Shown: piece by piece, positions 1,870 through 38,907 of the stretch
Position numbering within the stretch: the stretch's first letter is position 1
Layout of the letters: every line of letters begins with the position of its first letter
Source of the DNA: Fluviicola sp.
GTDB lineage: Bacteria > Bacteroidota > Bacteroidia > Flavobacteriales_D > Crocinitomicaceae
Direction: 5' to 3'
Assembly (NCBI RefSeq): GCF_029266855.1
Contig: NZ_JAQSWB010000003.1
Coordinates: 1-64,000, forward strand
DNA length: 64,000 bases
Notes under the pieces: generated by a model
The model's input: only the letters and a program-made list of their open reading frames with translations
Database searches by the model: none
Told to the model about the DNA's origin: nothing
Position numbers and translations under genes: made by a program

Positions 1870-1873
1870 GAAA

Positions 1874-1898
1874 AATTACGAATGCCTAATTCGTAATT
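1874..1898. repeat. Perfect 10-bp inverted repeat at the end of the alkD-like gene
   Basis: AATTACGAAT and ATTCGTAATT are separated by 5 bases. The right arm runs into the stop codon of the alkD-like gene (minus strand), and the element lies just upstream of the sigma-factor gene. There is a short A-run on the sigma-gene side, so on the minus strand the hairpin is followed by a few T residues and may act as a weak terminator. Related AATTCGTAA words occur at 10058-10097. Confidence 0.5.
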
Positions 1899-2574: not shown

Positions 2575-2577
2575 ACA

Positions 2578-5108: not shown

Positions 5109-5371
5109 GGTGTAAATATAATTACTAAAAGAAAGTTGCGGCAAAGCGCTTATACTTTTTTTGTTAAAAAAACAGTACGAGATAATTCCCCCACTTTTGT
5201 TTAATTACTGTCTTTCAACTAATTTAGCCGAAAAATTAGTAGATTGACAGACCTTGGTTTGTTAATCTAACCGAATGGTTTGAAATATTCACCGGTAAAA
5301 CAGCAGAATTCTCCCAATAGAAATGAATCAGCTGAGGCTGGTAATCAGATGATTGGTTCAAAAGAACAAGT

Positions 5372-5938: not shown

Positions 5939-6054
5939 AATTAAACAGTTTTTTTCAGAATTTATTCGGTACCTATTTTGCAATTGGTTCACAATGAATT
6001 AAATTGTTTGTCCAGATAAGAAACAAATTTATCAAAACGCGCGTTTAAGGAAGT

Positions 6055-6615
6055 GTGAAATACGGTTTACTGATCATATGGCTTCTTCTTTCTGTTTCAT
6101 TTTCCGAAGTGAAGCAGACCTCTTTTAAATATGTTTTTGGTGCACGTATATCGATAGGTGTAAATTCAAGTACGGTAAGTTTTGTAGCCATGAAGTACTC
6201 CGATGACGGGATTCTCAGAGCAAAACGATATTATACCAGCAGGGATGAATTTATTAAGGTTCTGAGTGGTTACTGGCCAAGTCCCTTCAACCCGGATAAA
6301 ATTGACTATTTCAAGGCAAACAGGATAATAGGGGGTGTTTTTGTAAACGATACTATTCGGGTAGAAGTAGGCTATTGTCCTGCATTGGACAGTCTGTGGA
6401 AGATTCGCTTTTCAGATTGGCCATATCACGGAAGAAATGAAGCCGGTTGGAGCCTGAACAAAGCACGTCCGAGTTTGAAACAGGAAGAATATCTGGCTAA
6501 AAGATACAATATCAAACAATTGGATTTTGATTATATAGTAGATACCAATTTCTGGAAGCTGTTATATGATGTTACCGATTCAACCTGGATCGAGAACTAC
6601 AAATTTATTCAATAA
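6055..6615 (+). CDS. Exported protein of unknown function
   Basis: The frame begins with GTG, preceded by AAGGAA at a suitable distance. The first ~18 residues (KYGLLIIWLLLSVSFS) are a signal peptide or single anchor. The remainder is 165 residues with many aromatic and charged residues, two Trp-rich spots (SGYWPSPFNPDK, RFSDWPYHG) and no family I recognise. The gene is followed at once by a strong bidirectional hairpin, so it is a single-gene unit. The protein is presumably periplasmic or on the cell surface. Confidence 0.7.
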   Translation: MKYGLLIIWLLLSVSFSEVKQTSFKYVFGARISIGVNSSTVSFVAMKYSDDGILRAKRYYTSRDEFIKVLSGYWPSPFNPDKIDYFKANRIIGGVFVNDTIRVEVGYCPALDSLWKIRFSDWPYHGRNEAGWSLNKARPSLKQEEYLAKRYNIKQLDFDYIVDTNFWKLLYDVTDSTWIENYKFIQ

Positions 6616-6653
6616 AAACGTAGAGGCGCGATTAATCGCGCCTCTACGTTTTT
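6614..6653. terminator. Perfect bidirectional terminator hairpin
   Basis: Nearly 40 bases form a perfect palindrome, with A-run on the left and T-run on the right, arms running from ACGTAGAGGCGCGATT to its complement. It lies between the convergent exported-protein gene and the GT2 gene and can stop transcription from both sides. The core GCGATTAATCGC is identical to that of the palindrome at 8732-8761. Confidence 0.85.
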
Positions 6654-6667
6654 ATATTTGATTGATT

Positions 6668-17437: not shown

Positions 17438-20044
17438 TTAAAGCTCACCAAGATTCATACCGATGGTGAATGTGAATTTAGGGAAATAACCTTTTGAATC
17501 GATTGATTGGTCAATTGACCCTCCGTAACCGGAAGAGTGTTTATCCAATTTGTCGAAGCCCCAGCCATAATCCAATCCGAGCATACCAAACATTGGCAGG
17601 AAGATTCTCACACCTGCACCAACACTTCGTTTTACATTAAACGGATTGAAGGTTTTGAAACTTGTAAAGGTATTTCCGGCTTCCGCGAATGCAAGTACGA
17701 AGAAAGTCGCTTGTGGATTTAAGGAGATCGGGTAGCGTAATTCCATGGTATATTTTGCAAGGATCGGATCTCCTCCGCTTGAAGACAAGGCATTGTCATC
17801 GTATCCTCTTAGCGCAATGATCTCACGACCTCCAAATTGATTTACCCCGGAAAGACCACTACCTCCCATGCTGAATCGTTCGAATGGAGTTAAGCCTTTA
17901 GCTGCATTGTATGCACCCATGTAACCAAAACCGATTCGTGGCATCAATACCAGTTTTTTATCCGGTGAAAGCGGTAAATAGTATTCAAATGTGAATTTCA
18001 ATTTATAATATTCCAGGTATTTGAATGTTTCCTGGGCAGACATGGTGCTGAAATCTTTTTTCCCATCCATTAGAGAGTAGGGAAGTGTTCCTTTTGCCGT
18101 AAATGAAATTTTAGATCCTTCTGTCGGATAGATCGGTGAGTTGATCGAGTTTCTCTGCAAAGAATATTTCAAACTGATATCGTTTGCATACCCATCGTTA
18201 AAGCTTGGGAACAAAGAAGAGTAATTTCGAACATCGTAGTATTGGTAAGCCAACTCATAGTATGCACTGAAATAATCATCCGGGAATTTTTTACGTCTTC
18301 CCAAACCGACACCCATTCCTGTGATTCCGACACCTGAATAACTTGGATCGCGTTTCTTCAAAGTCAAGCTTGAAGAAAAGGAAGTGTGATTCAAATAAAA
18401 AGTAAAGGAATTCGGTTTCTTTCCACCTAACCACGGTTCTGTGAAAGAGAAGTTATATCCCTGGTAAATTCGGCCATTCGTTTGTGCACGAATCGAAAGT
18501 CTTTGTCCGTCACCTGTTGGAAGCGGACTCCATGAATTCGGTTTGAAAATGTTTTTAACAGAGAAGTTACTGAAGGTAAGTCCCAGGGTTCCGATCACTC
18601 GTCCTGCACCATAACCACCCGAAAGCTCGATTTGATCCGCTGATTTTTCTTCTACAATGTATTCGATATCCACTGTTCCGTCCTGGGGATTTGGAATCGG
18701 GTTTACCTGGAATCCTTGCTCATTGAAATATCCCAGCTGTGCCAACTCACGCTGTGTACGGATAATATCGTTTCGGCTAAACAGATCACCTGGTTTTGTG
18801 CGGATTTCACGACGGATAACGTGCTCGTTTGTTTTATAGTTTCCTTTGATGATGACATTCTTAACGCGTGCCTCTTTGCCCTCAATAATCCGCATTTCGT
18901 AATTGATGTGATTGTCTTTAACTCCGGTTTCTACAGGCTCCACACGGAAGAATAAATATCCTCTGTCCATGTAAAGGGAGGTAATGTCTCTGTTGTCAGG
19001 ACTTTGAAATAAACGCTGATCTAATAAAGGTTTATCATAAATATCCCCGTATTTGATACCTAGAATCGTATCTAAAACACCGGAACTGAATTTGGTATTT
19101 CCAATCCATGTAATGTCTCCGAAATAGTATTTCTGGCCTTCTTCTACTTTTAAGTAGATTCCCAGGTTTCGGCTGTTTATTTTGTAAACGGAGTCAACTG
19201 AGAAACGAACATCTCTAAGCCCGACAGCTCTGAATTTATCCAAAACAGCCTCTTTGTCCCTGATGTAAGCCGTAGAATTGAATTTTGAACGTTTGAAAAT
19301 CCGCATGATGGACCTTCTCTTCGTATCTTTCATCGCTCTGCGCAGCTTCCATGGCTTAACGGAAGTGTTTCCGTCAAAGATGATATGTTTGATCTTAACT
19401 TTTTTTCCCTTGTCAATGTCAATGAAGAAAATTTCGGAATTGTTGATCAACGTATCCTGAACCTGGGTAATGTTTACCTGTACGTTGTTAAATCCTTTTT
19501 CAAGAAAATAACCTCTGATCTTATTTTTGGTCTTGAATAATAGGTTCTCAGTGATTGTTTGCCCGGATGACAGGTCCACTTCTTCACGGATCTTATCAAC
19601 TTCTCTTTTCGAAACACCTGTAAATCTGAAACGTGAAAGTTTTGGACGTGGCGTCAGTTTAATAACAAGGTAAATGACTCCGGCAACTTCTTTCTCGGCT
19701 TCAATGGCAATCTGAGAGAATAGCCCTTCATTCCAAAGGTTTTTAATCGCGTTACTGATTTTGTCTGAAGGAATTGTGATACTTTCTCCCTGTCTCAAAC
19801 CGGCAATTAATTTAATGGCTTGTGGGTCGAAATTGTCTGCACCTTCTATTCGGATAGGACCTAATATGTATTTTTCTGTTTTGGAGTAATTAAAATCCAA
19901 TCCGCCGCCGATTGTGGTAGCGGTTGATTTGATCGAATCAGTTTTATCTTTTGGTTGAGTTACGGCTGTTGTATCTGACGGATCAACTTGTCCGAAAGAC
20001 GAAAGAGCACACGTAAGAAATAAAATTGATAGGATGTTTTTCAT
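17438..20044 (-). CDS. bamA: Outer-membrane protein assembly factor BamA
   Basis: The 868-residue protein has a signal peptide, a short Thr/Lys-rich spacer, then POTRA-type repeats from about residue 60 to 475 (for example GPIRIEGADNFDPQAIK and VKNVIIKGNYKTNEHVIRRE as first and last). The C-terminal ~390 residues form the Omp85 beta-barrel, with GGYGAGRVIGTLGLTFSNF at its start and ending in TFTIGMNLGEL. BamA inserts beta-barrel proteins into the outer membrane. It lies 8 bases after uppS and ahead of two Skp chaperones, forming one envelope-assembly operon. Confidence 0.95.
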   Translation of the reverse strand: MKNILSILFLTCALSSFGQVDPSDTTAVTQPKDKTDSIKSTATTIGGGLDFNYSKTEKYILGPIRIEGADNFDPQAIKLIAGLRQGESITIPSDKISNAIKNLWNEGLFSQIAIEAEKEVAGVIYLVIKLTPRPKLSRFRFTGVSKREVDKIREEVDLSSGQTITENLLFKTKNKIRGYFLEKGFNNVQVNITQVQDTLINNSEIFFIDIDKGKKVKIKHIIFDGNTSVKPWKLRRAMKDTKRRSIMRIFKRSKFNSTAYIRDKEAVLDKFRAVGLRDVRFSVDSVYKINSRNLGIYLKVEEGQKYYFGDITWIGNTKFSSGVLDTILGIKYGDIYDKPLLDQRLFQSPDNRDITSLYMDRGYLFFRVEPVETGVKDNHINYEMRIIEGKEARVKNVIIKGNYKTNEHVIRREIRTKPGDLFSRNDIIRTQRELAQLGYFNEQGFQVNPIPNPQDGTVDIEYIVEEKSADQIELSGGYGAGRVIGTLGLTFSNFSVKNIFKPNSWSPLPTGDGQRLSIRAQTNGRIYQGYNFSFTEPWLGGKKPNSFTFYLNHTSFSSSLTLKKRDPSYSGVGITGMGVGLGRRKKFPDDYFSAYYELAYQYYDVRNYSSLFPSFNDGYANDISLKYSLQRNSINSPIYPTEGSKISFTAKGTLPYSLMDGKKDFSTMSAQETFKYLEYYKLKFTFEYYLPLSPDKKLVLMPRIGFGYMGAYNAAKGLTPFERFSMGGSGLSGVNQFGGREIIALRGYDDNALSSSGGDPILAKYTMELRYPISLNPQATFFVLAFAEAGNTFTSFKTFNPFNVKRSVGAGVRIFLPMFGMLGLDYGWGFDKLDKHSSGYGGSIDQSIDSKGYFPKFTFTIGMNLGEL

Positions 20045-22998: not shown

Positions 22999-23865
22999 TT
23001 ATTGGATATTAATTGGAAGTCTGTAATAACTTTTAACCGCTTCACCGTTCACTTTTCCGGGAGTCCATTTCGGCATGGATTTCACCACTTTAATTGCCGC
23101 CTTTTCACATGACTTGCAATCGTCGGTTGTTTTAGTGACGATTACAGAAGAGATACTTCCATCCGTGTCCACTACAAATTTCAAAGAAACTTTAGCTGTT
23201 CCATCAATGGAATTAATATCGATGTTTTCCGCTATGAAAGCACGCAAAGCATCCATCCCGCCCGGAAACTGCGCTGGTTCATCAACCACATCAACCGGTT
23301 CTTTGATTTTTGGAATCTCAATTGTTGTTCCTCCACCTGTTCCTTTACCCGGAGGTACAATTACAGGATTATCCCAAATGGATTTACCATCTCCCTTTTG
23401 TTGTTCAAGACCAATGTTCTTGTCCGGCTCCGGAGGAGTGATTTTATTATCTATTTCCTTGTCGCTAACAACCGGTTCACGGAATGCGATGATTTCCTGC
23501 ATGGACGGAGCTTCAGGTTGTTCAACTTCCGGCTCGGGAATTTCCGGCTCCTTCACATCATCTTTATACAACTCGGTAGTCCAGTTTTGTGTTACTATTA
23601 TAGGATCTTTTCTTTGTTCGAGCGGTTTGAACAGGTTGGATGCTCCCCATAATCCACCGATTCCAAGTGTGACTCCCAGGAAGATCAGGATAATCCGTTT
23701 GTCGTAATCTTTCCGGATTTTGTATGCGCCATATTCCTTGTTGCGGTTTTCGAATACGGTTTCATTGCGTTCTCTTGAAGTAACCATTTGCCAGGATCTG
23801 GAAGAGAAATAATCATACAGCGAGAATGCTACGATGATTAACATGATTGAAAGTGTAAGTACCAT
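22999..23865 (-). CDS. TonB-family energy transducer with two N-terminal membrane segments
   Basis: Residues 1-18 and about 58-78 are hydrophobic, separated by a cytoplasmic segment (TVFENRNKEYGAYKIRKDYD) typical of Bacteroidota TonB. A Pro/Glu-rich spacer follows (EPEIPEPEVEQPEAP), and the last ~90 residues are a TonB C-terminal domain (EPAQFPGGMDALRAFI, SLKFVVDTDGSISSV, MPKWTPGKVNGEAV). A CKSC motif sits where many Bacteroidota TonB domains have one Cys. It is a paralogue of the gene at 28275. It stands alone, with its own terminator. Confidence 0.92.
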   Translation of the reverse strand: MVLTLSIMLIIVAFSLYDYFSSRSWQMVTSRERNETVFENRNKEYGAYKIRKDYDKRIILIFLGVTLGIGGLWGASNLFKPLEQRKDPIIVTQNWTTELYKDDVKEPEIPEPEVEQPEAPSMQEIIAFREPVVSDKEIDNKITPPEPDKNIGLEQQKGDGKSIWDNPVIVPPGKGTGGGTTIEIPKIKEPVDVVDEPAQFPGGMDALRAFIAENIDINSIDGTAKVSLKFVVDTDGSISSVIVTKTTDDCKSCEKAAIKVVKSMPKWTPGKVNGEAVKSYYRLPINIQ

Positions 23866-25303: not shown

Positions 25304-26917
25304 TTACTTTTTAAAGTATGCTTTAGCTTGTGCGTCGTTCGGGTCTAGCTCCAGAACTTTGTTCCACATAGCGTCTGCTTTTGCTTTATCCTTCATCGGG
25401 GAGTTTACATAGTAATCTCCAAGATACTTGGAAGCTTCAATGATGTAAGACTTATAAGAACCTGTAGCAATATCCTCAGGAGTAAGTGCAGCTAAGAAGC
25501 TTTCATATTGAGGCTGTGCCAAATACTTTTTAGGCTTATTCGTAAGATCCAGCTGAACACGTGCACGTGCCTGCCAGAAATGTCCTCCGGGGAATGTAGG
25601 TGATGTTTCCACCAAACGTCCGAAGATCGAATCTGCCATTTTGTAGTCTTTTGGACCGAAATAGTAAGCTCTACCAAAATCGTAATATTCGATAGCCTGC
25701 ATTTTAGCCGGGTACTGATTCATTTTCTTTGTATATACTTCTATCAGTTTCGGATAGTTTTTCTTTTCAGCATACAACTTCGCAATATCAGTAAGGTATT
25801 CGGAAGCTTTTGCAGTATCTATTGCAGCAGCTAAATAATATTGTTCGACCGTTTTGTCTTCCTGACCTAATTTGTCGTAGATCATTCCACGGTATTTATA
25901 GTCGGATGAAATGATCTTTTCTTTAGGAACGATTTTCAGGAAATTTTCGCTTTCATTCAAAGCCTGAACATATCGCAAGCTGTCAGCGGATTCATTGCAT
26001 TCGTACAAAGAATAGTATAACATACGTTTCGTATACAAATTCACGAAACCATGTTTTTCAATTTGCTCGATTTGAGATAAAGCGTTACAATATTGCTTTG
26101 CTCCGAACAATGAACTTGCGTAACGGTAACGTGCTTCATCCGTGTCGTTCAATTTCAAATACTTTTCCCACGATTCGATCGCAGCGGCATATTGGTCGAA
26201 CAGGATGTTCAACTCTGCATTTTCTCTGTATGCAGGTGCATAGTTCGGGTCGGCAGCCTGTGCTTTTTTGTATTCTTCGTTCGCCAGCTTGTAATTTTGA
26301 ACGCGCTGATAAATTTGTGCTTTGCGTACAATCACTCTTGCTGAATTCGGGTCAATAGCCAATGCATTATTGTATTGTTCTGTTGCAGCAGTTGCGTTGG
26401 CATTGCTTTGAGCTAACAAAACATCTCCCAATAAAACGTATGCATCCAGGTTTTTCGGGTCTAAACGAACAGCATCACGCAAATAAGCTTCTGCCACCTT
26501 CAGGTTTTTCACTGGCCCTGTTGCATAAGTCTCGGCAATACGGTGAAGAACTACCGGGTTTTTGCGCTTTGTTTTTTTGATGATTTCACAGAATTGCTGA
26601 CCTGCAGTTGTAGTGTCACCTTGAAAGTAAAGTGCTTTTGCAGCGGAGACCATTCCTAATTTGTCTTCCAGGTTGATTGTTCCTGCTTTTCTCCACATGG
26701 TAATAGCCGAATCTTTTTCTCCGATGATTGCATAGAAATTCCCAAAAAAGAATGCGTTCTCCACACTGTTCGGATCAGCCTGAATTAATTTTTGATATTC
26801 TTTACGCGCTAAATCATAACGCTCATTTTCCGTTTTTTTGTTTGCGTCCTGCAATGTTTGAGCCTGTGCGGCTGTTCCTAAACTCAGTGCAAAAACGAAT
26901 AGTTTTAACTTGTTCAT
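25304..26917 (-). CDS. Exported tetratricopeptide-repeat protein
   Basis: I choose ATG 26917, directly before the signal peptide (NKLKLFVFALSLGTAAQAQ); the open frame extends 6 codons further. Almost the whole mature protein (~515 residues) consists of TPR-type helical pairs, for example DANKKTENERYDLARKEYQK at the N-terminus and AEAYLRDAVRLDPKNLDAYV near residue 155. It ends in a last repeat (MWNKVLELDPNDAQAKAYF). It follows the PstS-like gene; exbB-exbD-exbD-tonB-PstS-TPR is an order I know from flavobacteria, but the role of the TPR protein is not established. Confidence 0.88.
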   Translation of the reverse strand: MNKLKLFVFALSLGTAAQAQTLQDANKKTENERYDLARKEYQKLIQADPNSVENAFFFGNFYAIIGEKDSAITMWRKAGTINLEDKLGMVSAAKALYFQGDTTTAGQQFCEIIKKTKRKNPVVLHRIAETYATGPVKNLKVAEAYLRDAVRLDPKNLDAYVLLGDVLLAQSNANATAATEQYNNALAIDPNSARVIVRKAQIYQRVQNYKLANEEYKKAQAADPNYAPAYRENAELNILFDQYAAAIESWEKYLKLNDTDEARYRYASSLFGAKQYCNALSQIEQIEKHGFVNLYTKRMLYYSLYECNESADSLRYVQALNESENFLKIVPKEKIISSDYKYRGMIYDKLGQEDKTVEQYYLAAAIDTAKASEYLTDIAKLYAEKKNYPKLIEVYTKKMNQYPAKMQAIEYYDFGRAYYFGPKDYKMADSIFGRLVETSPTFPGGHFWQARARVQLDLTNKPKKYLAQPQYESFLAALTPEDIATGSYKSYIIEASKYLGDYYVNSPMKDKAKADAMWNKVLELDPNDAQAKAYFKK

Positions 26918-27102
26918 GTTATTTTGTCTTTTCAACGTATTGGTGCATTATACAATTCCTTTGCCAAATTAGTACAAACTGATTAAATCGTATGCTTTCT
27001 TAACGATTATTTCATTTTAATCGACTCGTATGTATTCCTGATTGAGCGAAATGAAGCAGGGAGGAATTGAATGATAATTTTCTAAAAACCAGGTGGATAT
27101 CG

Positions 27103-28005
27103 CTATTCTGTGGTGAAATTGATTTCCCGTGGAGTTCCTCTTCCGGGTCCGAGCTCACATTTTTCCAATAGAAGCTGACCTTGGCGCGAATTCAGGAAAG
27201 TTACAAATCCGGTGTTTAATCCGTCGGGTGCCCCGGAGTTAATTGCCCAGATAGGTCTCCAAAACGGGTATTTTTTCTCCGTTATGTTTGCTTTTGATGG
27301 TCTCCAGTAAGATTTTTCATTTCCCTGGATTCCCACAACAATGAATTTTTTGAGCCTGGCTCTTACATCTGCATCGTCAAAATCACTAATAAAATTGTAC
27401 CCGATCACACCCAATGTGTTTGGATGTTCCTGAACGTATTGGATTACATCTTCCGTGTTTTTGGCAGCATGAACCTGTTTTCCGAAATCTGTTCCGATCC
27501 AGTTTAGCATGTAGTTGAAGTTTGCCGACTGAACCCGGTCAAATACGATTTCTATCGGTTTTTGAGATCCGGGCCAGGTAGTGCTTTTTCCTGATAAAAA
27601 TTCACGAAGCTGCTTCTGGGTAAGCAGGGTGTCTGTATTTCCAAGGTTAACAATGAAGGTGATTGCATCATGGGCAATGATCTCGGATGTAACTGTAATG
27701 TTTCGGGATCTCAGGTATTTTCTTTCTTCGTCGGTGTAGTCTCTTCCGGTGAAGATTGTTCGTGCGGTTCCTTCGGATAATGCTTTCATGGCATCGGATT
27801 CGCTGGTGTATACCAGGTTCAGTTCAGCATCCGGATAGATTCCTGAGAATACATCTGATGCGGTTTTGATAAGTGGTTTGAATGATTCATCCAGATACAT
27901 TGTTTTCTTACCACGACGAGGGGTGTCATCAACCTGTTGATTGGTATTACACCCGAACTGAACTCCCAAAACAAGGATCAGACTTAAAATAACCAGTTTT
28001 TTCAT
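27103..28005 (-). CDS. PstS-like substrate-binding lipoprotein
   Basis: The start at ATG 28005 gives a lipoprotein-type signal (KKLVILSLILVLGVQFGCN). The mature part resembles type II phosphate-binding proteins: MYLDESFKPLIKTASDVF, the serine-rich TSESDAMKALSEG, IAHDAITFIVN and PNTLGVIGYNFISD. Because no pst transport genes are near and it follows exbBDD-tonB, I infer that it works with the Ton system and not with an ABC permease. Ligand unknown. Confidence 0.85.
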   Translation of the reverse strand: MKKLVILSLILVLGVQFGCNTNQQVDDTPRRGKKTMYLDESFKPLIKTASDVFSGIYPDAELNLVYTSESDAMKALSEGTARTIFTGRDYTDEERKYLRSRNITVTSEIIAHDAITFIVNLGNTDTLLTQKQLREFLSGKSTTWPGSQKPIEIVFDRVQSANFNYMLNWIGTDFGKQVHAAKNTEDVIQYVQEHPNTLGVIGYNFISDFDDADVRARLKKFIVVGIQGNEKSYWRPSKANITEKKYPFWRPIWAINSGAPDGLNTGFVTFLNSRQGQLLLEKCELGPGRGTPREINFTTE

Positions 28006-28009
28006 AGTC

Positions 28010-28216
28010 CTATTTTTCTTCTCTGTCTTTTTTGATTGTCGTATATAAACGAAATGCTCTGTACGCGGCATAACCGAGCAGCAGAACAATAAATGCATTG
28101 CGTTTGAACCCGTAGATTTTTTCGATAAACAAATCTGTGAATAGCAGGTAATAAGTCATGACTAAACACATGATGATCATGAAACCTGCAACAATATGTG
28201 TGATGTTTTTATACAT
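28010..28216 (-). CDS. Small two-helix membrane protein
   Basis: From ATG 28216 the product has 68 residues with two hydrophobic helices (THIVAGFMIIMCLVMTYYLL and FIVLLLGYAAYRAFRLY) and a charged C-terminus (TIKKDREEK). It lies 4 bases before the PstS-like start and after a strong hairpin that separates it from tonB. It is a conserved-looking position in the cluster, but no function is known to me. Confidence 0.75.
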   Translation of the reverse strand: MYKNITHIVAGFMIIMCLVMTYYLLFTDLFIEKIYGFKRNAFIVLLLGYAAYRAFRLYTTIKKDREEK

Positions 28217-28225
28217 GTTAATGCG

Positions 28226-28255
28226 AAAAATCCCCCTCGGCATAGCTGAGGGGGA
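28226..28255 (-). terminator. Strong hairpin inside the Ton cluster
   Basis: TCCCCCTC and GAGGGGGA form a near-perfect 25-base hairpin (28231-28255); on the minus strand five T residues follow. It lies between the tonB stop and the small membrane gene, so it should reduce transcription into the pstS-like and TPR genes. Confidence 0.8.
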
Positions 28256-28274
28256 CTATTTAAGAATAATGAAA

Positions 28275-29135
28275 TTAATTCAATTTGAATGTTACCGGAA
28301 GGGAGAAGATACTGTTCACCGGTTTTCCGTTGTTCTTTCCTGGTGACCATTTCGGCATTCCTTTTACAACACGGATTGCTTCTGCGTCACATTCAGGACA
28401 GTCAGTTACACCTTTTTTCAATTTTACGTTGGAGATATAACCATTCTCACTTACGACAAACTGGATGTAACATTTTCCCTGGATTCCCATTTCCTGGGCA
28501 ACCTGCGGGTAGTGAATGTTTTCACTCAGGTACTTCAAAAGAGCTGCACGACCTCCGGGGAAATCTGCCGGTTCATCTACGAATTCGTAAATTACTTCCT
28601 CTTTTTTCTCTACCTTTTCCTCTTTCGGTTTTGGAGGAGTCGGATCTACCTTTGCAAACGGATCGCCTTCGTTCTCATTGGTCTCAGTTGAAGCCTTCGT
28701 GTCCTCCACATCCGTTTGAGTTACCGGAGGAGTATCGACTTCGTCATCTGTTACCACAGGAGGTAGGAACTGAACGGTTTTTTCCATTGGCGGGATTTCC
28801 GGCTCAAGAGGTTCAATGATTTCCTCTTCCAAAGGAGCATCAACAGCAAATGCTGTTAAATCCAAAGGAACTTCTTTTGGTTTTTCTTCCGGAAGGTTCA
28901 TAATTAACTTATAAATTCCGAAAGTCGTTCCAATGAACAGGATCACACCGGCCATAACAAGTATCAGGTTGCGGCTGTAATTCGTTCGGATCTGGTACGC
29001 ACCGTATTCGTGGTTGCGGTCCTCAAAAACGATCTCATTACGCTCGTCAGATGTTACTTGCTGCCAGGTTTTAGAGCTGAAGTACTCGTATAACGAAATA
29101 CCTGCTACTAATAGAATTACGATTGTTATTAACAT
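28275..29135 (-). CDS. TonB energy transducer of the ExbBDD operon
   Basis: It has two N-terminal hydrophobic segments around the cytoplasmic VFEDRNHEYGAYQIR motif, a Pro/Glu/Lys-rich spacer (DPTPPKPKEEKVEKKEE), and a C-terminal TonB domain (FVDEPADFPGGRAALLKYL, CYIQFVVSENGYISNVKL, MPKWSPGKNNGKPVN). The position marked TDCPEC gives a C-x-x-C motif. It starts 2 bases after exbD and should carry proton-motive energy to outer-membrane receptors. Confidence 0.94.
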   Translation of the reverse strand: MLITIVILLVAGISLYEYFSSKTWQQVTSDERNEIVFEDRNHEYGAYQIRTNYSRNLILVMAGVILFIGTTFGIYKLIMNLPEEKPKEVPLDLTAFAVDAPLEEEIIEPLEPEIPPMEKTVQFLPPVVTDDEVDTPPVTQTDVEDTKASTETNENEGDPFAKVDPTPPKPKEEKVEKKEEVIYEFVDEPADFPGGRAALLKYLSENIHYPQVAQEMGIQGKCYIQFVVSENGYISNVKLKKGVTDCPECDAEAIRVVKGMPKWSPGKNNGKPVNSIFSLPVTFKLN

Positions 29136-29137
29136 AT

Positions 29138-29785
29138 CTATTTATTTAATGCTTTGTCTAACAATGCCTGTTCGCTGTTCATGATATCTACCGGAGCAAT
29201 TACCCCGACAGATGCAATATACAACTCATCAATTACATCAATAAAGTTTCTCGTCTTGGCCTTCATATCCGTTTTTACCAAAACTTTCAGCGCTCTCTTA
29301 TCTTTTTTTGCCTCATTCAAATTTCTCTTGTAAATTGAATCTGCAATTTGATTACGCTGCAGTTTTCCGTCCAGTTCTACTTTCTTCATCAGAACAAATT
29401 TATTCTCTTCTACAAGAAGTTTTCTAAGACCAGTCGGACCAAAATCCGTTTCGGTCAACTGTGTAGGAGGTTCACCGTCCTTGTTTCCCTCTGGGTGAAA
29501 CTCGCCTTTGTAGTAAAACAAACGATCATCAGATACGATAAATGTAATCGCGTTATTTACTAAACGAGATGGATCCTTTGGATCAGGCGGTTCCTGCTCT
29601 TTAGCTGGGTATACCAGGCTCATTACCTTTGGTTTCGCAAATGTTGAAGTCAATACGAAGAAAGTCAACAACAGGAAACCTAAATCCACCATGGGAGTCA
29701 TATCGATACGCGCAGGTGCTTTCTTAGGACGTTTTTTACCACCTCCTTTTTTGCCTCCTCCGTCATCTTGTGCTAATTCTGCCAT
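29138..29785 (-). CDS. ExbD-type biopolymer transport protein (second copy)
   Basis: A Lys/Gly-rich cytoplasmic N-terminus (GGGKKGGGKKRPKKAPA) precedes the single membrane helix with the essential Asp in RIDMTPMVDLGFLLLTFFV. The periplasmic domain (150 residues) is larger than in E. coli ExbD. Two different ExbD proteins in series are standard in Bacteroidota Ton complexes. It starts 14 bases after the first exbD. Confidence 0.94.
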   Translation of the reverse strand: MAELAQDDGGGKKGGGKKRPKKAPARIDMTPMVDLGFLLLTFFVLTSTFAKPKVMSLVYPAKEQEPPDPKDPSRLVNNAITFIVSDDRLFYYKGEFHPEGNKDGEPPTQLTETDFGPTGLRKLLVEENKFVLMKKVELDGKLQRNQIADSIYKRNLNEAKKDKRALKVLVKTDMKAKTRNFIDVIDELYIASVGVIAPVDIMNSEQALLDKALNK

Positions 29786-29799
29786 CTTTTCCTGTTATT

Positions 29800-30486
29800 T
29801 TATTTAACTACTGCTGATGCTTCTTGCGAAGTAATGAAGTTCAAGTTGTTCAGGTTCAGATCACGGAAGGTTTCGATAGCGCTTTTAACACGCACGTACT
29901 CCGCATCCATTGCTGCTTTCAATACAAACTTCGGTTTATAATCCTCTGCCTTTAAGGGCTCCTGACCTTTACCTTGTTTCGAACTTTCTTCTTCGAACAT
30001 TTTCTTTCCGTAATCAAGCATTTCGCGGTTCGCGAAATTGATCCAGTCTTTCAATTCATTGTGCAAACTGTCAGAAGGAATCCCGACCTCAGTAGGGAAT
30101 GCCTTTCTTCCTGCACCGTCCAATGAAAGATATTGGGGAAGTTGATTCATAGAACAGCCAATACTCGTAATTCTTACGAATTCCTTCATATTGTCTTCGC
30201 TCAATGGAACTTTGTACTTAGCAGCCATTTGGGTAAGCACTTTTCTACGCACCTCTTCTCCTGTACAGGAAAAGAAAATACGACCTCCTTTATCAACAGT
30301 CACTAATATCAACGTCTTTTCGGGAATATCTTTTTCTCCGATGGACGATGGAATAGAAACATCAACTGGTTCATCTGTACGGAATGTTGCTGCAAGCATG
30401 AAGAAAGTAACCAAGAGGAAAGCCAAATCCACCATCGGCGTCATGTCGATGGATGGGGATCCTTTGGATGTTTTAATTTCTGCCAT
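29800..30486 (-). CDS. ExbD-type biopolymer transport protein (first copy)
   Basis: The N-terminus SIDMTPMVDLAFLLVTFFMLA has the proton-carrying Asp in the single membrane helix. The periplasmic part is long (~190 residues) with an insertion between the usual strands, including KDWINFANREMLDYGKKMF. It follows exbB by 31 bases and is clearly related to, but not identical with, its downstream neighbour. Confidence 0.93.
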   Translation of the reverse strand: MAEIKTSKGSPSIDMTPMVDLAFLLVTFFMLAATFRTDEPVDVSIPSSIGEKDIPEKTLILVTVDKGGRIFFSCTGEEVRRKVLTQMAAKYKVPLSEDNMKEFVRITSIGCSMNQLPQYLSLDGAGRKAFPTEVGIPSDSLHNELKDWINFANREMLDYGKKMFEEESSKQGKGQEPLKAEDYKPKFVLKAAMDAEYVRVKSAIETFRDLNLNNLNFITSQEASAVVK

Positions 30487-30517
30487 TCCTTAATATTTTA
30501 TACCGTTTAAACGGATA

Positions 30518-31321
30518 TTAGTTGTTATTTGCATTGAAGTTCTGAACGATAGCAAATCCAGCCTCATCCATTGCGTGTGTCATTTGATCGATCTTCGTGT
30601 TGAAGAAGTTGTAAAGGATAGTTGCAATGGTAGATGCGAAGATACCTAAGAACGTATTGATCAAGGCTTCAGAGATACCAATCGATAATTTTGTAGTATC
30701 CGGAGTACCTTGTCCCATTGCAGAGAACGAACGGATCATCCCGATTACTGTTCCGATCAAACCGATCAATGTACCAACTGATACACACGTTGAAATAATT
30801 ACAAGGTTTTTGGATAACATTGGTAACTCCAACGCGATTGCCTCGTCGATTTCTTGTTTGATGATTTCTGATTTTTCTTCTTTAGTCAAAGAAGGATCGC
30901 TTTTAACAGATTCGTATTTTTCCAAACCAGATCTGATAACGTTAGCCAAAGATCCTTTTTGTTTATCACACTCTTCGATAGCGCCTTCTAAATCGTTAGC
31001 ATCCAATAAAGATTTGATGTTTTCTACAAATTTGTTGATGTTTCCACGTCCTTTTGTTTTTGAAATGCTGATGAAACGCTCAACAGAGAAAATAATCACG
31101 ATAAGGTTTACCGCCATTAGGAAAGGTACGATAATACCACCTTTGTAAACAATTCCTAATACATTTCCTTCAATCGGATGTTCATTTGGATCGTTATTCA
31201 CGAAGTTTGACGGATCTCCTAAAATGAAATAATAGATAAGAAATCCAATTCCTAATGCAATTGCAATAGATAATGAGGCAACTAATGATGAAAAACCTCC
31301 TCCTGTTTTTGTCTTGCTCAT
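30518..31321 (-). CDS. ExbB/TolQ/MotA-family proton channel protein
   Basis: The 267-residue protein has three or four hydrophobic helices. The C-terminal two contain the family's conserved features (SVGTLIGLIGTVIGMIRSF and GISEALINTFLGIFASTIA). With two ExbDs it forms the motor that energises TonB. It is the first gene of exbB-exbD-exbD-tonB; a -7-like element lies at 31361. Confidence 0.95.
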   Translation of the reverse strand: MSKTKTGGGFSSLVASLSIAIALGIGFLIYYFILGDPSNFVNNDPNEHPIEGNVLGIVYKGGIIVPFLMAVNLIVIIFSVERFISISKTKGRGNINKFVENIKSLLDANDLEGAIEECDKQKGSLANVIRSGLEKYESVKSDPSLTKEEKSEIIKQEIDEAIALELPMLSKNLVIISTCVSVGTLIGLIGTVIGMIRSFSAMGQGTPDTTKLSIGISEALINTFLGIFASTIATILYNFFNTKIDQMTHAMDEAGFAIVQNFNANNN

Positions 31322-33762: not shown

Positions 33763-33800
33763 AGGAAGGGGAGACTGGAAATAGTCTTCCCTTTGTTTTT
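33763..33800 (+). terminator. Terminator of paaZ
   Basis: GGAAGGGGAGACT pairs with AGTCTTCCCTT around a short loop and is followed by TTTGTTTTTT. It insulates the TonB-domain array that starts about 50 bases further on. Confidence 0.8.
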
Positions 33801-33852
33801 TATATCTTAGCAGGGTCAATCAATTTAAATGTCTAAATTTCAAGGAATCACC

Positions 33853-34992
33853 ATGCGTATCTCAATCAATATAAGCCTGTTTTTAGTCCTCTTTACGTCA
33901 CTGCCTGCAGGTGCTCAATCTGCAAAGGAATTGAATAAGCAGTTGCGTGCTGAACTGGCTGTGGAGCAGCAGAAACAGGATTCCTGCCATTCGGTTTTCC
34001 TTCGATCGTACCGGGAACTGGACAGTGTGAAAGAAAGCGTGTACATTAAACTGCAAAAATTGTCTGAAGCGGCAAGATCGATCAGGGAAACCTACAGTTC
34101 TGTTTCCTCCTCACTGAATACGTTAAAGAGCCTGGGCAGGTATCCGGATATGGATTTCAAAGAGTTGAATGCACTGAAGGATTACTCTGATTTTATAAAA
34201 CCGATCAAGGGCTCGCTGAAAACAAAAGAACGCTTTGAGGTGGTTTTAAATAACGAAAATCTTGAAAAAGCTAAAACAAAGGAGCAAAATCAATTGTGGG
34301 GGCAGAAGCTTGTGGAGTACCGGGATAAGGCGGCGTTGAACGCATCCGGTTTCAGGAAAAATGAAGCAGCACGGATACAATTGCAAAGCTTTTCTCCGCA
34401 ACTGGACTCAATTCTGATAGGATATCAGTATGTCACTGAAGATCTGCTGCCAAGAAAAGCGCAGTTGGAGAAGGAACTTGATGTACTTCGTGAGAATTAC
34501 CGCTTGAAAGGTCCGGAAGGATTCTCGTTCGCGTATAGAGAAGCTTTTCCGGATATTCATCCGCTTCCTCCAAGGGAGAATGGTGATATTGTAATGGATG
34601 GAACAATCGAAAGTGAAGGCGATTATGATGCTGTACCGGTGCAGAAAGAGTCAAGTATCCCTGTTCAGGAACCTGAGATTTACGAAATCGTTGACGAACC
34701 GGCAATATTTCCGGGAGGTTATGATGCTTTGAAGAAATACCTGGCAGAGAATATTGTTTATCCTTCGTTTGCCAAAGAAGCCGGGATTTCCGGAAAAGTA
34801 TTTCTGAAATTTGTTGTTTCAGATAAAGGGAGGATTTCAAATGTGAAAATCATGCGGGGAATCCCCGATTGTCCGGAATGTGATAAGGAAGCAATTCGCG
34901 TTGTAAAAGGAATGCCTGCCTGGATTCCGGGTAAGGTCAAGGGCAAAGCGGTGAACTCCGTTTTCAATCTCCCTGTTCAATTTAAACTATAG
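33853..34992 (+). CDS. Exported coiled-coil protein with TonB C-terminal domain (array gene 1)
   Basis: Translation probably starts at ATG 33853, which has AAGGA upstream and directly precedes a signal peptide (RISINISLFLVLFTSLPAGAQ); the frame is open from 33829. Mature residues begin QSAKELNKQLRAEL and form a long charged helix up to about residue 215. A LRENYRLKGPEGFSFAYREA segment links to a TonB C-terminal domain (VDEPAIFPGGYDALKKYL, CPECDKEAIRVVKGMPAWIPG). A cleaved signal would leave no membrane anchor, unlike a true energy transducer. First of four paralogues, 2 bases before the next. Confidence 0.85.
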   Translation: MRISINISLFLVLFTSLPAGAQSAKELNKQLRAELAVEQQKQDSCHSVFLRSYRELDSVKESVYIKLQKLSEAARSIRETYSSVSSSLNTLKSLGRYPDMDFKELNALKDYSDFIKPIKGSLKTKERFEVVLNNENLEKAKTKEQNQLWGQKLVEYRDKAALNASGFRKNEAARIQLQSFSPQLDSILIGYQYVTEDLLPRKAQLEKELDVLRENYRLKGPEGFSFAYREAFPDIHPLPPRENGDIVMDGTIESEGDYDAVPVQKESSIPVQEPEIYEIVDEPAIFPGGYDALKKYLAENIVYPSFAKEAGISGKVFLKFVVSDKGRISNVKIMRGIPDCPECDKEAIRVVKGMPAWIPGKVKGKAVNSVFNLPVQFKL

Positions 34993-34994
34993 CT

Positions 34995-36137
34995 ATGAAA
35001 AATCTACTATTTCTGCTTGTAATTATAATTTATTCGTTTAGTTACGGGCAATCCGCAAAGAAATTGAATAAGCGACTCTTGGCTGAGTTCGCTTCGGAAC
35101 AACAAAAACAAGATTCCGCTTTTGCTGTTTTCTCGCAAACAAAGCGGGAATTTGATTCGCTCAAAAGAGTGACAAATGGAAAGATGGATTTGTTGTCCAA
35201 CGAAGAACGGCGGGCTGTGAAATCAGTTGACAAAACTATTGAATTCATCAGTCAGTTGGAAGAGCTGGGATTTAATCCTTATGCTATAATCCCGAAGGAT
35301 GATCCCAATAGAAAAGAATTCCCAAGGTACCGGGAATTTATCAGGCCGCTTAAGGAAATAATGAGAACAGAGGTGAAATTTGATAAGGTATCAAACAGGC
35401 TTTATTTGGAGGGCCTCAAACGAAAGGAGCAAAATGTCATGCTGACCGAAAAAATCAGCGAATATAAAACGCATTCGAAGGACAACGCTATCCACCAGGA
35501 GAACTTGGAGTCGAATATGGAAAAATTACTTGCCTTTTTTCCGAAAATGGATTCCTTGTCTCGTTACTATAAAGCGGTAACGGATGAATTCAAAATCAAA
35601 GGAGCTAAGTTGGAAAGTAAACTCGACGCATTGCGGGCAGAATATATCGAAAAAGGACCGCGTGGATTCTCTGATGCCTACAAAAAAGTCTTCTATGATG
35701 CATTTCCACCTTCGCCGGAAGAAATGATCCAGGAAGTTGAAATGACTAAAGCAGGATGGGGTGATGGTACTTACGATATGGTAATAGCTCCGCCGGTCGA
35801 GCCAAAAGATCAGGAGGTAGTATATGATTATGTGGAGGAACCCGCAAGTTTTCCGGGTGGGAGCGAAGCTTTGAAAACGTTTATTTCCAAAAACTTGCGT
35901 TACCCTGAATCAATGAAAGAAGCCGGAGTACAGGGGAAAGTGTATTTGAAATTCGTGGTTTCTGAAACGGGGGAGATTTCTGATGTTAAAATTGCAAGAG
36001 GTATTCCCGGTTGTAAAGAGTGCGATACGGAGGCAATCCGTATGGCCAAAACAATGCCGCTTTGGATTCCCGGTAAGAATAATGGGAAAGCGGTGAAGTC
36101 TTATTTTATTTTGCCAGTTAAATTTCAATTGGAATGA
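34995..36137 (+). CDS. Exported coiled-coil protein with TonB C-terminal domain (array gene 2)
   Basis: Signal peptide (KNLLFLLVIIIYSFSYGQ), then QSAKKLNKRLLAEFASEQQK and a long helical region to about residue 220. EYIEKGPRGFSDAYKKVFYD matches the linker of genes 1 and 3. The TonB domain (VEEPASFPGGSEALKTFI, YLKFVVSETGEISDVKI, MPLWIPGKNNGKAVKS) has CKEC in place of CPEC. It starts 2 bases after gene 1 and ends 4 bases before gene 3. The paralogues are well diverged in the helical part, so the array is not recent. Confidence 0.85.
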   Translation: MKNLLFLLVIIIYSFSYGQSAKKLNKRLLAEFASEQQKQDSAFAVFSQTKREFDSLKRVTNGKMDLLSNEERRAVKSVDKTIEFISQLEELGFNPYAIIPKDDPNRKEFPRYREFIRPLKEIMRTEVKFDKVSNRLYLEGLKRKEQNVMLTEKISEYKTHSKDNAIHQENLESNMEKLLAFFPKMDSLSRYYKAVTDEFKIKGAKLESKLDALRAEYIEKGPRGFSDAYKKVFYDAFPPSPEEMIQEVEMTKAGWGDGTYDMVIAPPVEPKDQEVVYDYVEEPASFPGGSEALKTFISKNLRYPESMKEAGVQGKVYLKFVVSETGEISDVKIARGIPGCKECDTEAIRMAKTMPLWIPGKNNGKAVKSYFILPVKFQLE

Positions 36138-36141
36138 TTTT

Positions 36142-37260
36142 ATGAATAAGATTGTTATCGCAGTATCGTTCTTTTTGCTGAGCCAGTTGGTTTTGGGACA
36201 ATCTGACCGGAAAATCAATAGTCAGTTAAAGGCAGATCTTTTGCGTTGCTGGGAAAAGCAGGATTCAGTTACGCAATTATTTAAGACCAAAGAGTATCCA
36301 TTAGCCTTACTCAAGGGGGAAACAATGTATCACCTTTCCATTTTGGGCGGGGAGAAGAATTCAACAGAAGAGCTGATTCTGGTAAACACGCAATTGAAGG
36401 AGAACCTGGAAATGTTGGGTGTGGATTTGAAATCTTTGATCTCAACGGACAAAACTCCTGTCTTACCTGAGTACAAATTGTTAACGGATCCGATGCAAGA
36501 AATAATAAAAACGCATTTGGATATTGGTTTGCCGCCTGTTAAGGCCTATTATGACCATCTTCCGTTGGAAGAGCAGAACGAAATGTTGCGGAAAGAGATT
36601 AGTAAGAATGAATATTATTTAAATTACATTTCTTCCGAATTTAATCAGATAGAACCTCATAAAACACAGCTTGAGCAGCTTACCCCCAAACTGGATTCGA
36701 TGCAAATCGGTTATCAATTAATGAGGAAAGAATTGCTTGCTGTGAAGAAAATATTGGAGGGAAAACTGAAAGAGATGCGAGAGAATTATGTCACCAAAGG
36801 ACCAAATGGTTTTTCAGAGGCCTATAAAAAAGTTTTTCCAGAGATTGGAAGGACTGTAAGCATTGAAAAACGAATTTTTGAAATGCTTGAATCGGAACCT
36901 GAGCCTGATATGGGGCCTGGTAAAAGACAGGAACCAATTGTTTATGAGTTTACGGATGAACCGGCGATGTTCCCGGAAGGAAATTCAGCTATGTTGAAAT
37001 ATTTGACGGAAAATATCCGTTATCCGGAAGTAGCTGTTGAGATTGGAATTCCAAGTTCGAAGTGGTATGTTCAGTTCATAGTGAGTGAAAGAGGGTCAAT
37101 TTCCAACGTTCAGGTAAAAGGTGGTATAACTGATTGTCCGGAATGCAATGCAGAAGTAAAGCGGGTAGTAAAATCAATGCCGCTTTGGATTCCTGCAAAA
37201 ATTAATGGGAAATCAGTAAACTCATGGTTTATTCTGCCGGTTACAATTGGTTTGCGCTGA
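36142..37260 (+). CDS. Exported coiled-coil protein with TonB C-terminal domain (array gene 3)
   Basis: Signal peptide (NKIVIAVSFFLLSQLVLGQ), mature start QSDRKINSQLKADLLRCWEK, helical region to about residue 210, linker ENYVTKGPNGFSEAYKKVFP, and a TonB domain (TDEPAMFPEGNSAMLKYL, VQFIVSERGSISNV, CPECNAEVKRVVKSMPLW). FPEG replaces the usual FPGG, and PAKINGKS replaces PGK. It lies between genes 2 and 4 with gaps of 4 and about 5 bases, so it is in the same operon. Confidence 0.85.
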   Translation: MNKIVIAVSFFLLSQLVLGQSDRKINSQLKADLLRCWEKQDSVTQLFKTKEYPLALLKGETMYHLSILGGEKNSTEELILVNTQLKENLEMLGVDLKSLISTDKTPVLPEYKLLTDPMQEIIKTHLDIGLPPVKAYYDHLPLEEQNEMLRKEISKNEYYLNYISSEFNQIEPHKTQLEQLTPKLDSMQIGYQLMRKELLAVKKILEGKLKEMRENYVTKGPNGFSEAYKKVFPEIGRTVSIEKRIFEMLESEPEPDMGPGKRQEPIVYEFTDEPAMFPEGNSAMLKYLTENIRYPEVAVEIGIPSSKWYVQFIVSERGSISNVQVKGGITDCPECNAEVKRVVKSMPLWIPAKINGKSVNSWFILPVTIGLR

Positions 37261-37265
37261 ATAGA

Positions 37266-38510
37266 ATGGTAAAATTATTTTTCATGAAACTCTTTATTTT
37301 ATTCCTTTTATTTCTGTTCTCAGCAGCTTCAATTTTTGCCCAATCCAAAAAGAAGATCAATGACCAGTTGAATACTGAATTGGCAGCGGTTAAAACGAAG
37401 GTTGATTCCATTACTGTTTTAGTTTCACAAAAAGCATCTCAACTTCTGATCAAACAACAGGATTTTGAATCTGCGCAGTTGAGAAATACACAGCGGCAGG
37501 CAACAGATCTGAAGGATGCACTTAAAAGCGTGGAAAAATCCTATAATCAATTGATCCGTTTGGAAAAAGATCCCGCCAAACTCGTTAATTTGAATGCTTT
37601 GAAAGCAGAGATAGATCGTTTTCAGGAAAAGCAGTCGGCAACAGAGCTCCCAAAGGAGATTATGGAGCCTAAGGAACTTATTCTGATTAAAGATACCATA
37701 CTTGAAAAAAAACGCAGCCGGAAAGCACAAAACGAGTGGCTGCGTGGAGAATTGGTTCGGTATTCATTGGTTATAGAAGAGAATAGGACTAAACTGAACC
37801 AAATAAATAACTATTCTGCGACCATTGACCGGATGCGCCCTGAATTGGATTCGGTTTACCTGAGTTACGAAGAAGTATTGTATAATTTGGCAATTGGAGA
37901 AGCTAACTTACGGGATAGTATTCATAAACTTCGGGAGTTTAGTCTTAAAAATTGGCCAAAGAATTTCTCACCGGTATTTGAACGGGAATTCGGAAAACCG
38001 GAGAGGAACGAAATTTCACAACCTACAGGCGAAGGATGGAGCACAAATGTGTGGTATGCTTATAATGAACCGGTTGAATTGGCAGTAGATTTTATCAGGT
38101 ACGCCAACTCCATTCCGATTAATGAATTTAGTGTGGAAAGGATGAAAAGTCAGGGAAGTGTAATTCGTCGCTTTGATCCGGATCCTGCGATGATTTATTC
38201 CCACGTGGATGAAGAAGCAGAATTTCCGGGTGGTCGAAGTGCACTGATGAAATTTTTAGCTGAAAATTTTCAGGTTCCCGAAGTGCTTAAGGAAATGGGA
38301 ATGTCGTTTAAGCTACGGATGAAGTTTGTTGTGCTGGAGGATGGAACACTTTCAGATGTTACGGTCTACAAAGGAATGCCCGGATGCCCGGAATGCGACA
38401 GGGAAGCAATTCGCGTCTTCAAAATTATGCCGAAATGGATACCCGCAAAGTTGCATGGAAAAACAGTGAAATCCCAGTACAACCTGCCGATCAATATTCA
38501 TTTGAATTAA
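37266..38510 (+). CDS. Exported coiled-coil protein with TonB C-terminal domain (array gene 4)
   Basis: Start ATG 37266 (or 37284, at the signal peptide KLFILFLLFLFSAASIFAQ). The mature start QSKKKINDQLNTELAAVKTK matches the other three; the helical part (~240 residues) is the longest. The linker is degenerate (LKNWPKNFSPVFEREFG) and a 60-residue insertion precedes the TonB domain (VDEEAEFPGGRSALMKFL, CPECDREAIRVFKIMPKWIPAK). The gene's last 19 codons are part of the 228-bp tandem duplication that follows. Confidence 0.83.
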   Translation: MVKLFFMKLFILFLLFLFSAASIFAQSKKKINDQLNTELAAVKTKVDSITVLVSQKASQLLIKQQDFESAQLRNTQRQATDLKDALKSVEKSYNQLIRLEKDPAKLVNLNALKAEIDRFQEKQSATELPKEIMEPKELILIKDTILEKKRSRKAQNEWLRGELVRYSLVIEENRTKLNQINNYSATIDRMRPELDSVYLSYEEVLYNLAIGEANLRDSIHKLREFSLKNWPKNFSPVFEREFGKPERNEISQPTGEGWSTNVWYAYNEPVELAVDFIRYANSIPINEFSVERMKSQGSVIRRFDPDPAMIYSHVDEEAEFPGGRSALMKFLAENFQVPEVLKEMGMSFKLRMKFVVLEDGTLSDVTVYKGMPGCPECDREAIRVFKIMPKWIPAKLHGKTVKSQYNLPINIHLN

Positions 38511-38680
38511 TTGGATCGGATATCAAATCCAAAGGACAACTGATTGATACCCTAAGGAAGGGCGACTGGTAAGCGCCCTTTAAAATCTGTGCATTTGTGG
38601 TAAAAAAAAGGTCAATTGCGATTCATTCTCAACGCTTCGCGTCCCTGTCTTATCCTTATCTCAACAAAAACTCCAAAACT
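38453..38680. repeat. Tandem duplication, copy 1 (228 bp)
   Basis: It begins within array gene 4 (GCATGGAAAAACAGTG), includes the last 19 codons, the intergenic hairpin and the last few codons of the convergent hydrolase, and is repeated head-to-tail at 38681. The two copies differ by a few substitutions and small indels, mainly in the stretch after GGATCGGATATCAAAT. The junction words are both GCAT. Confidence 0.9.
38558..38582. terminator. Terminator hairpin in duplication copy 1
   Basis: AAGGGCG and CGCCCTT flank a 9-base loop, about 48 bases after the stop of array gene 4, with a short T/A run on either side. Confidence 0.65.
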
Positions 38681-38907
38681 GCATGGAAAAACAGTGAAAT
38701 CCCAGTACAACCTGCCGATCAATATTCATTTGAATTAATTGGATCGGATATCAAATTCAGGATAACTGGTTAATACCTTAAGGAAGGGCGACTGGTAAGC
38801 GCCCTTTAAAATCTGTGCATTTGTGGTAAAAAAAAAGGTCAATTGCGATTCATTCTCAGCGCTTCGCGTCCCTGTCTTATCCTTATCTCAACAAAAACTC
38901 CAAAACT
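38681..38907. repeat. Tandem duplication, copy 2 (227 bp)
   Basis: Second copy of the 38453-38680 unit. Here the array-gene fragment is non-functional (it has no start), while the hydrolase tail is the real one, with its stop at 38883-38885. Copy 2 has one more A in the A-run and CTCAGCGC instead of CTCAACGC. Confidence 0.9.
38784..38808. terminator. Terminator hairpin in duplication copy 2
   Basis: Same stem as in copy 1 (AAGGGCG / CGCCCTT). It lies about 75 bases after the hydrolase stop on the minus strand, so the two copies could serve the two convergent genes separately. Confidence 0.6.

Follow-up and report, generated by a model that had tools for sequence, protein, structure and literature searches.

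TonB and TolA hold their outer-membrane partners by C-terminal strand addition, and a transmembrane helix couples TonB to ExbB/ExbD, as described in excerpts of two sources (PMC12905483, PMC12204202); in Escherichia coli, the last TonB strand pairs with the TonB box (excerpt of PMC12905483). Here, we analysed a 64,000-nucleotide stretch of the genome of Fluviicola sp. (contig NZ_JAQSWB010000003.1, positions 1 to 64,000; hereafter the window), which holds a tandem array of four genes whose products carry a TonB C-terminal domain (TonB_C) behind a predicted cleavable signal peptide and a predicted long helical hairpin. Skp/OmpH chaperones are likewise exported with a long helical hairpin, but Skp has no TonB domain. 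An OmpH profile found no match in the four proteins at E-values up to 1, and with this library two further window genes are recognised as OmpH.

Like the TonB energy transducer (PF03544 TonB_C, TIGR01352), the array proteins have, by profile and by predicted fold, the same C-terminal domain; the array is encoded beside an exbB-exbD-exbD-tonB operon, but divergently and with a PaaZ-like gene in between. Unlike the transducer, they have no predicted uncleaved, motor-binding transmembrane helix, all 26 family members showing a cleavable signal pattern, and a pair of long helices with a brief disordered linker stands in place of a long proline-rich spacer. A preliminary description, made from the letters of the window, knew no characterised system of this form; a literature search, in which subscription journals were thinly covered, likewise gave no recognisable description of the hairpin family or of an exported anchorless TonB_C class.

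Domain plan of the four-gene array

The array consists of four open reading frames (ORFs) separated by 2, 4 and 5 bases:

33853-34992, + strand: gene 1, 379 amino acids; signal peptide 33853-33915, helical hairpin domain 33916-34557, disordered linker, TonB C-terminal domain about 34675-34989
34995-36137, + strand: gene 2, 380 amino acids; signal peptide 34995-35048, hairpin domain 35049-35702, TonB C-terminal domain about 35814-36134
36142-37260, + strand: gene 3, 372 amino acids; signal peptide 36142-36198, hairpin domain 36199-36846, TonB C-terminal domain about 36934-37257
37266-38510, + strand: gene 4, 414 amino acids, its start at 37266 or alternatively at 37284; signal peptide to 37340, hairpin domain 37341-38000, longer disordered linker, TonB C-terminal domain about 38190-38507

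All four proteins follow one plan: a type I signal peptide, a mature chain starting with QS, a helical region, a motif of the KGPxGF type, a disordered linker and the TonB C-terminal domain. The preliminary description had reported a tandem array of fixed plan with gaps of 2, 4 and about 5 bases, and the ORF coordinates, Pfam matches and alignment agree with it. TonB_C scores 61.2, 52.2, 24.5 and 34.7 bits in genes 1-4 against a cut-off of 24.6, gene 3 being marginal in this protein scan and reaching 27.9 bits in a six-frame search. The motif reads KGPxGF in genes 1-3 and is degenerate (NWPKNF) in gene 4. In library scans, the N-terminal regions matched no Pfam or NCBIfam family above cut-off, and the same two libraries revealed no peptidoglycan-binding domain in the four proteins. 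Alignment of the four gives 22 invariant columns ahead of the TonB domain (start methionine not counted), and a profile of the N-terminal region recovers 24 genes in loci of the genus, indicating that the shared plan is not due to chance. The earlier statement that a proline-rich spacer is missing holds for the long, periplasm-spanning kind, but the short disordered linker of gene 1 does contain several prolines. We are highly confident of this anatomy.

Predicted export and absence of a membrane anchor

We interrogated the N-termini of all 26 family members, 24 of them found by the N-terminal-region profile and two added by hand. The predicted signal peptides are 17-22 residues long and end in A, G or S at position -1 with a permitted residue at -3 in 26 of 26 members; with the mature start read from the alignment column, every chain begins with Q at +1 and none with C. 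Kyte-Doolittle hydropathy over 19-residue windows of the mature chains peaks at 1.46 and so stays below 1.6 throughout. As a control, a crude signal pattern selected nine other ORFs of the window, including an Omp85 protein and two OmpH proteins, and three of the four array genes (gene 3 was missed). Lipoproteins were rejected for the lack of Cys at +1, and membrane-anchored paralogues for the predicted cleavable signal.

The N-terminal hydrophobic segments, at 17-22 residues, could in principle stay uncleaved and act as anchors, which would make these ordinary, if odd, TonB paralogues. We consider this most improbable, because every member satisfies the -3,-1 rule and has Q at +1, in the manner of exported proteins encoded in the window, and because the window's two anchored TonB proteins begin quite differently, showing two hydrophobic segments at the N-terminus. 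The four proteins are thus predicted to be exported, with neither membrane anchor nor lipobox after cleavage, and the initial proposal of exported TonB-C proteins without an anchor is borne out at the level of signal pattern and hydrophobicity.

Predicted structure

Genes 1 and 4, the latter the most divergent, were modelled with AlphaFold2, and both models show a two-helix hairpin followed by a TonB-type domain. For gene 1, modelled as the mature chain with a 10-sequence alignment, the mean predicted local distance difference test score (pLDDT) is 82 and the predicted template modelling score (pTM) 0.50; helices span residues 3-72 and 121-198, a short helix (205-210) lies in the GPxGF region, and disorder at 221-252 precedes the elements of the TonB C-terminal domain. 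The gene 4 model (pLDDT 75) has the same plan, with helices at 3-73 and 127-204 and disorder at about 223-283. From helix geometry, the hairpin arms, about 70-78 residues each, would be roughly 10 nm long.

Structure searches with the gene 1 model retrieve, for its C-terminal domain, TonB domains that include those from the FoxA complex (6i97_D; Foldseek E 6.3e-05, template modelling score 0.75 by target length; VIA-align Z 10.8 over 88 residues) and from the BtuB complex (2gsk_B; VIA-align Z 9.1). The hairpin matched a mixture of unrelated long helical structures with VIA Z up to 11.3, some above the TonB values, and we rejected kinship with them because long helices score high by arrangement alone. 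A sequence relation to the GldL-type motor coiled coil (7saz, E 3.2e-4; 6ys8, E 0.0039) was set aside; these matches are followed by assorted coiled coils, and nothing further backs them.

Distribution within and beyond the genus

We count 26 family genes across the genus, spread over 12 of the 14 genomes compared (the window counts as one), with 0-4 copies per genome: four in the window, G011 and G013; three in G005 and G006; two in G008; one each in G001, G002, G003, G004, G009 and G012; and none in G007 and G010. The profile alone places the family in 11 of the 14 genomes; the G003 gene, which scores only 21.5 bits with the hairpin profile, and one diverged G013 gene, which the profile missed, were included manually on the grounds of position, signal and plan. 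The G005 sequence is a short contig and may hold further copies.

In ten of the 14 genomes, the family lies between a PaaZ-like gene and an alpha/beta-hydrolase gene, beside exbB-exbD-exbD-tonB, with further ORFs on the hydrolase side in G003 and G009. G005 shows one flank, the G004 copy is located elsewhere, and G007 and G010 retain the flanks without the family. On a tree of the neighbouring genes, built from 13 genomes (G005 omitted; G004 represented by one third of the columns), the pattern of presence and absence needs two changes, fitting two losses.

Beyond the genus, a hairpin profile of 23 domains gave no convincing match in overlapping samples of 150 genomes of the taxonomic family (14 of them from the genus), 299 of the order and 296 of the phylum, which are a part of all genomes. 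Weak matches in G086 (23.6 bits), G325 (23.1 bits, six in-frame stops) and G129 (19.4 bits, one stop) were set aside, although the retained G003 gene scores no higher than the best two of these. Separately, a pattern search of genome contigs placed the family in two named records, the metagenome-assembled genomes Flavobacteriales UBA7666 and UBA5869. In the samples searched, the hairpin domain is restricted to the genus. The search for the domain pair in other genomes thus found it within the genus, with nothing convincing beyond. Of the idea that the array forms a distinct assembly, the part that concerns the hairpin stands, the domain being confined to the genus in the genomes searched, but a TonB C-terminal domain without an anchor is in itself unexceptional, as described below.

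Genomic neighbourhood and origin of the C-terminal domain

The array adjoins a Ton operon that lies on the opposite strand, divergently, with the PaaZ-like gene in between. The names of the Ton operon, PaaZ-like and hydrolase genes are backed by Pfam for the window copies.

28275-31321, - strand: exbB-exbD-exbD-tonB operon, Pfam-confirmed; exbB 30518-31321, exbD 29800-30486 and 29138-29785, membrane-anchored tonB 28275-29135
33765-33804, + strand: intrinsic-terminator-like hairpin of 13 pairs with a T run, after the aldehyde dehydrogenase-MaoC (PaaZ-like) gene and ahead of gene 1
38446-38900, + strand: tandem duplication of about 227 nucleotides, copies 38446-38673 and 38674-38900, three blocks 95-99% alike; takes in the last 65 nucleotides of gene 4

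The terminator is a weak candidate, because the scan gave 5 such sites against 4.5 in shuffled sequence. At 25304-31321 of the window, genes for a PBP_like_2 (PstS-like) lipoprotein and a TPR protein follow exbB-exbD-exbD-tonB. The same arrangement is present in the congener loci that span it, with small TonB_C genes inserted in G004 and G007. In G007, the site that is occupied by the family in other genomes (L030, 17163-18598) carries small genes resembling two toxin-antitoxin modules, of which Pfam confirms only a PIN domain (18015-18404).

The C-terminal domains of genes 1-4 are 54-68% identical to that of the neighbouring TonB and closer to it than to each of five other aligned non-family TonB_C domains of the genome. 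In the genus loci, a CxxC motif, mostly CPEC or CKEC, is present in all 26 family domains, all 23 domains of the anchored-TonB class and 7 of 10 others; none of 65 TonB_C genes sampled across the phylum has it. In 14 hand-picked regions of the taxonomic family, 16 of 28 TonB_C proteins carry it; five of these 16 belong to a same-genus array (L114), leaving 11 of 23 in other genera. This pattern ties the hairpin family to the exb-linked TonB lineage, from which, to judge by these comparisons, its C-terminal domain most likely derives. CxxC is also present in the TonB C-terminal domains encoded at 28275-29135 and 22999-23865 of the window and in L113, L115-L117, L121 and L125, and possibly forms a disulfide. 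On the tree, family members of G003 and G009 group with their own TonB, under a starred branch. A single clade for the family C-terminal domains is not rejected by the approximately unbiased test (p-AU 0.196; 25 rows against 26, eight of 59 rows, one of them a family member, having been omitted for long branches), and we make no claim of repeated domain exchange with the neighbouring TonB.

The closeness to TonB and the site beside the Ton operon in ten of 14 genomes would also fit partners of TonB itself: the free C-terminal domains would pair with that of the anchored protein, and the hairpin would lengthen or cross-link the path of force or connect it with other envelope parts. TonB C-terminal domains dimerise in some crystals. 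This explanation is unlikely in our estimate: going by layout, the family is not co-transcribed with tonB, and the family is absent from two genomes that retain the Ton operon.

Pairwise identity across the family (325 pairs) averages 25% in the hairpin and 51% in the C-terminal domain. In the closest pair, nonsynonymous and synonymous divergence (dN/dS) are 0.05/0.34 for the hairpin and 0.06/0.31 for the C-terminal domain. Of the other 13 pairs listed, most have a dS that is high or uncomputable, and dN is well under dS in those that can be computed; the main grounds for purifying selection are the closest pair and this low dN elsewhere. The duplication at the end of the array points to recent recombination there. 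The partial copying of a 3' end, together with fast divergence and a copy number of 0-4, could mark selfish or near-neutral tandem duplicates of no stable function, but all four frames are open and dN stays well below dS wherever it can be computed, and we regard this explanation as very unlikely.

Anchorless TonB_C proteins across the phylum

The preliminary description implied that TonB C-terminal domains without an anchor are exceptional, a view that was not supported. The source genome has 12 TonB_C matches: judged by eye, nine appear to be exported and anchorless, two are anchored, and one belongs to an M56 protein. The nine comprise the four array proteins and proteins of 228, 153, 143, 109 and 574 amino acids, the 109-residue match lying under the Pfam cut-off and the start of the 574-residue protein being uncertain. 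The latter (L010, 703-2427; TonB_C 24.8 bits) has a C-terminal part resembling a von Willebrand A domain, below the family cut-off.

In 11 other genomes of the phylum, 72 TonB_C matches correspond to 65 genes, which a script classed as 28 membrane-anchored, 6 multi-pass, 25 with signal peptide I and 6 lipoproteins; the script prints only the first allowed cleavage site and accepts internal starts up to 40 codons downstream. After two (L105, L110) were moved by eye from signal peptide I to anchored, 29 of the 65 appear to have no membrane-spanning anchor. A Pfam scan of nine chosen from these 29 gave six with a carboxypeptidase-regulatory-like domain, one with MORN_2 and two under the TonB_C cut-off. 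The six (L070, L073, L078, L080, L085 and L090) are predicted exported, anchorless proteins in which the carboxypeptidase-regulatory-like domain is joined to TonB_C. According to an excerpt of PMC12204202, many TonB-dependent receptors of Bacteroidetes also carry such domains N-terminally.

Four genomes, some from other genera of the taxonomic family, have small signal-plus-TonB_C genes in tandem arrays:

L112 (G017), 1119-3417: small TonB_C array
L113 (G022), 1608-3031: small TonB_C array, directly beside an anchored tonB
L114 (G011), 843-3316: small TonB_C array
L027 (G004), 4928-7114: small TonB_C array

Like the hairpin family, the small genes are tandem and anchorless, with a CxxC variant in L113 and L114; unlike it, they are mostly about 130-165 amino acids long and have no hairpin. 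The anchorless proteins of the phylum (with signal peptide or lipobox, several with CarboxypepD_reg, PF13620) share with the family export, a mature chain free of transmembrane segments and a C-terminal TonB_C, but their N-terminal part is short or another domain, and a long helical hairpin was seen in none. As to common ancestry, the small proteins are scattered in a poorly resolved tree. The anchorless class looks common; the hairpin is the new element, and the array family is, judged by domain content, a genus-restricted variant of this widespread class.

The variety of exported N-termini joined to TonB_C in the phylum (carboxypeptidase-regulatory-like, MORN_2, small signal-plus-domain proteins, lipoproteins) suggests another explanation, in which the fold has been recruited as a general binding module of the periplasm, with new ligands and no part in Ton transport. 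The fast evolution of the hairpin relative to the C-terminal domain agrees with it. The C-terminal domains of genes 1-3, however, remain near a genuine neighbouring TonB, including a tyrosine-proline (YP) pair and most of the last strand, and we hold such reuse to be somewhat unlikely.

Proposed role in TonB-dependent transport

We favour, with a probability of about 40%, the reading that the array proteins are passive TonB-box ligands or regulators, free in the periplasm and competing with TonB. After Sec export and loss of the signal peptide, each member of this genus-specific family, expanded by local duplication, would be a soluble periplasmic protein exposing a helical hairpin tied by a flexible linker to the TonB-type domain, which probably still offers its last strand to the TonB boxes of outer-membrane receptors by strand addition. 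The gripping part of TonB would be retained and the coupling part lost: because it has no membrane segment, the protein itself would draw no force from ExbB/ExbD, and with no force coupling of its own it would most likely be a passive ligand. Such a ligand could occupy or guard receptor TonB boxes or compete with TonB, limiting or directing its access, and the hairpin may serve self-association or binding to another envelope partner. We infer these roles in binding and regulation from the predicted architecture. Howard et al. in 2001 reportedly saw transport inhibited by the periplasmic portion of E. coli TonB in free form.

Genes 1-3 keep the last strand of the neighbouring TonB nearly intact ([NK]SxFxLPV), and gene 4 keeps it only partly. 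The YP pair is retained in genes 1-3 and in 19 of 26 family members; according to an excerpt of PMC4446302, it touches the TonB box. Matches to the receptor plug domain number 16 to 32 per genus genome (24 in the source genome), providing many possible ligands.

Several observations weigh against a passive TonB-box ligand. The source on YP also reports that the three TonB proteins of Riemerella anatipestifer are without it (PMC4446302), which makes the pair weak support. YP is missing from gene 4, whose last strand is also looser, and altered last strands occur in several congener members. Copy number bears no clear relation to plug matches (G009, 1/32; G011, 4/25; two 2.9-Mb genomes, 0/16 and 0/17), and a dose relation was rejected by inspection of the counts, with no statistic computed. 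Because the array is on the other strand with the PaaZ-like gene between, the neighbourhood may only mark a site of duplication, and the family appears dispensable in the two of 14 genomes from which it is absent.

A bolder form of the passive-ligand reading, which we consider quite unlikely, would make the proteins "TonB caps": hairpin rods whose TonB heads sit on the TonB boxes of particular receptors and so choose which receptors the Ton motor engages, each paralogue having its own receptor group and the anchorless TonB_C proteins of the phylum forming a general control layer over TonB-dependent transport.

The genomes of the genus combine their many receptor plugs with few anchored TonB proteins. 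The operon offers a compact test case, with four paralogues at one site and natural null relatives in G007 and G010. If TonB heads without an anchor make up nearly half of TonB_C genes, as in the sample of 65, counting TonB_C genes as energy transducers would often be wrong in the phylum, which may possess a layer of competitors or adaptors.

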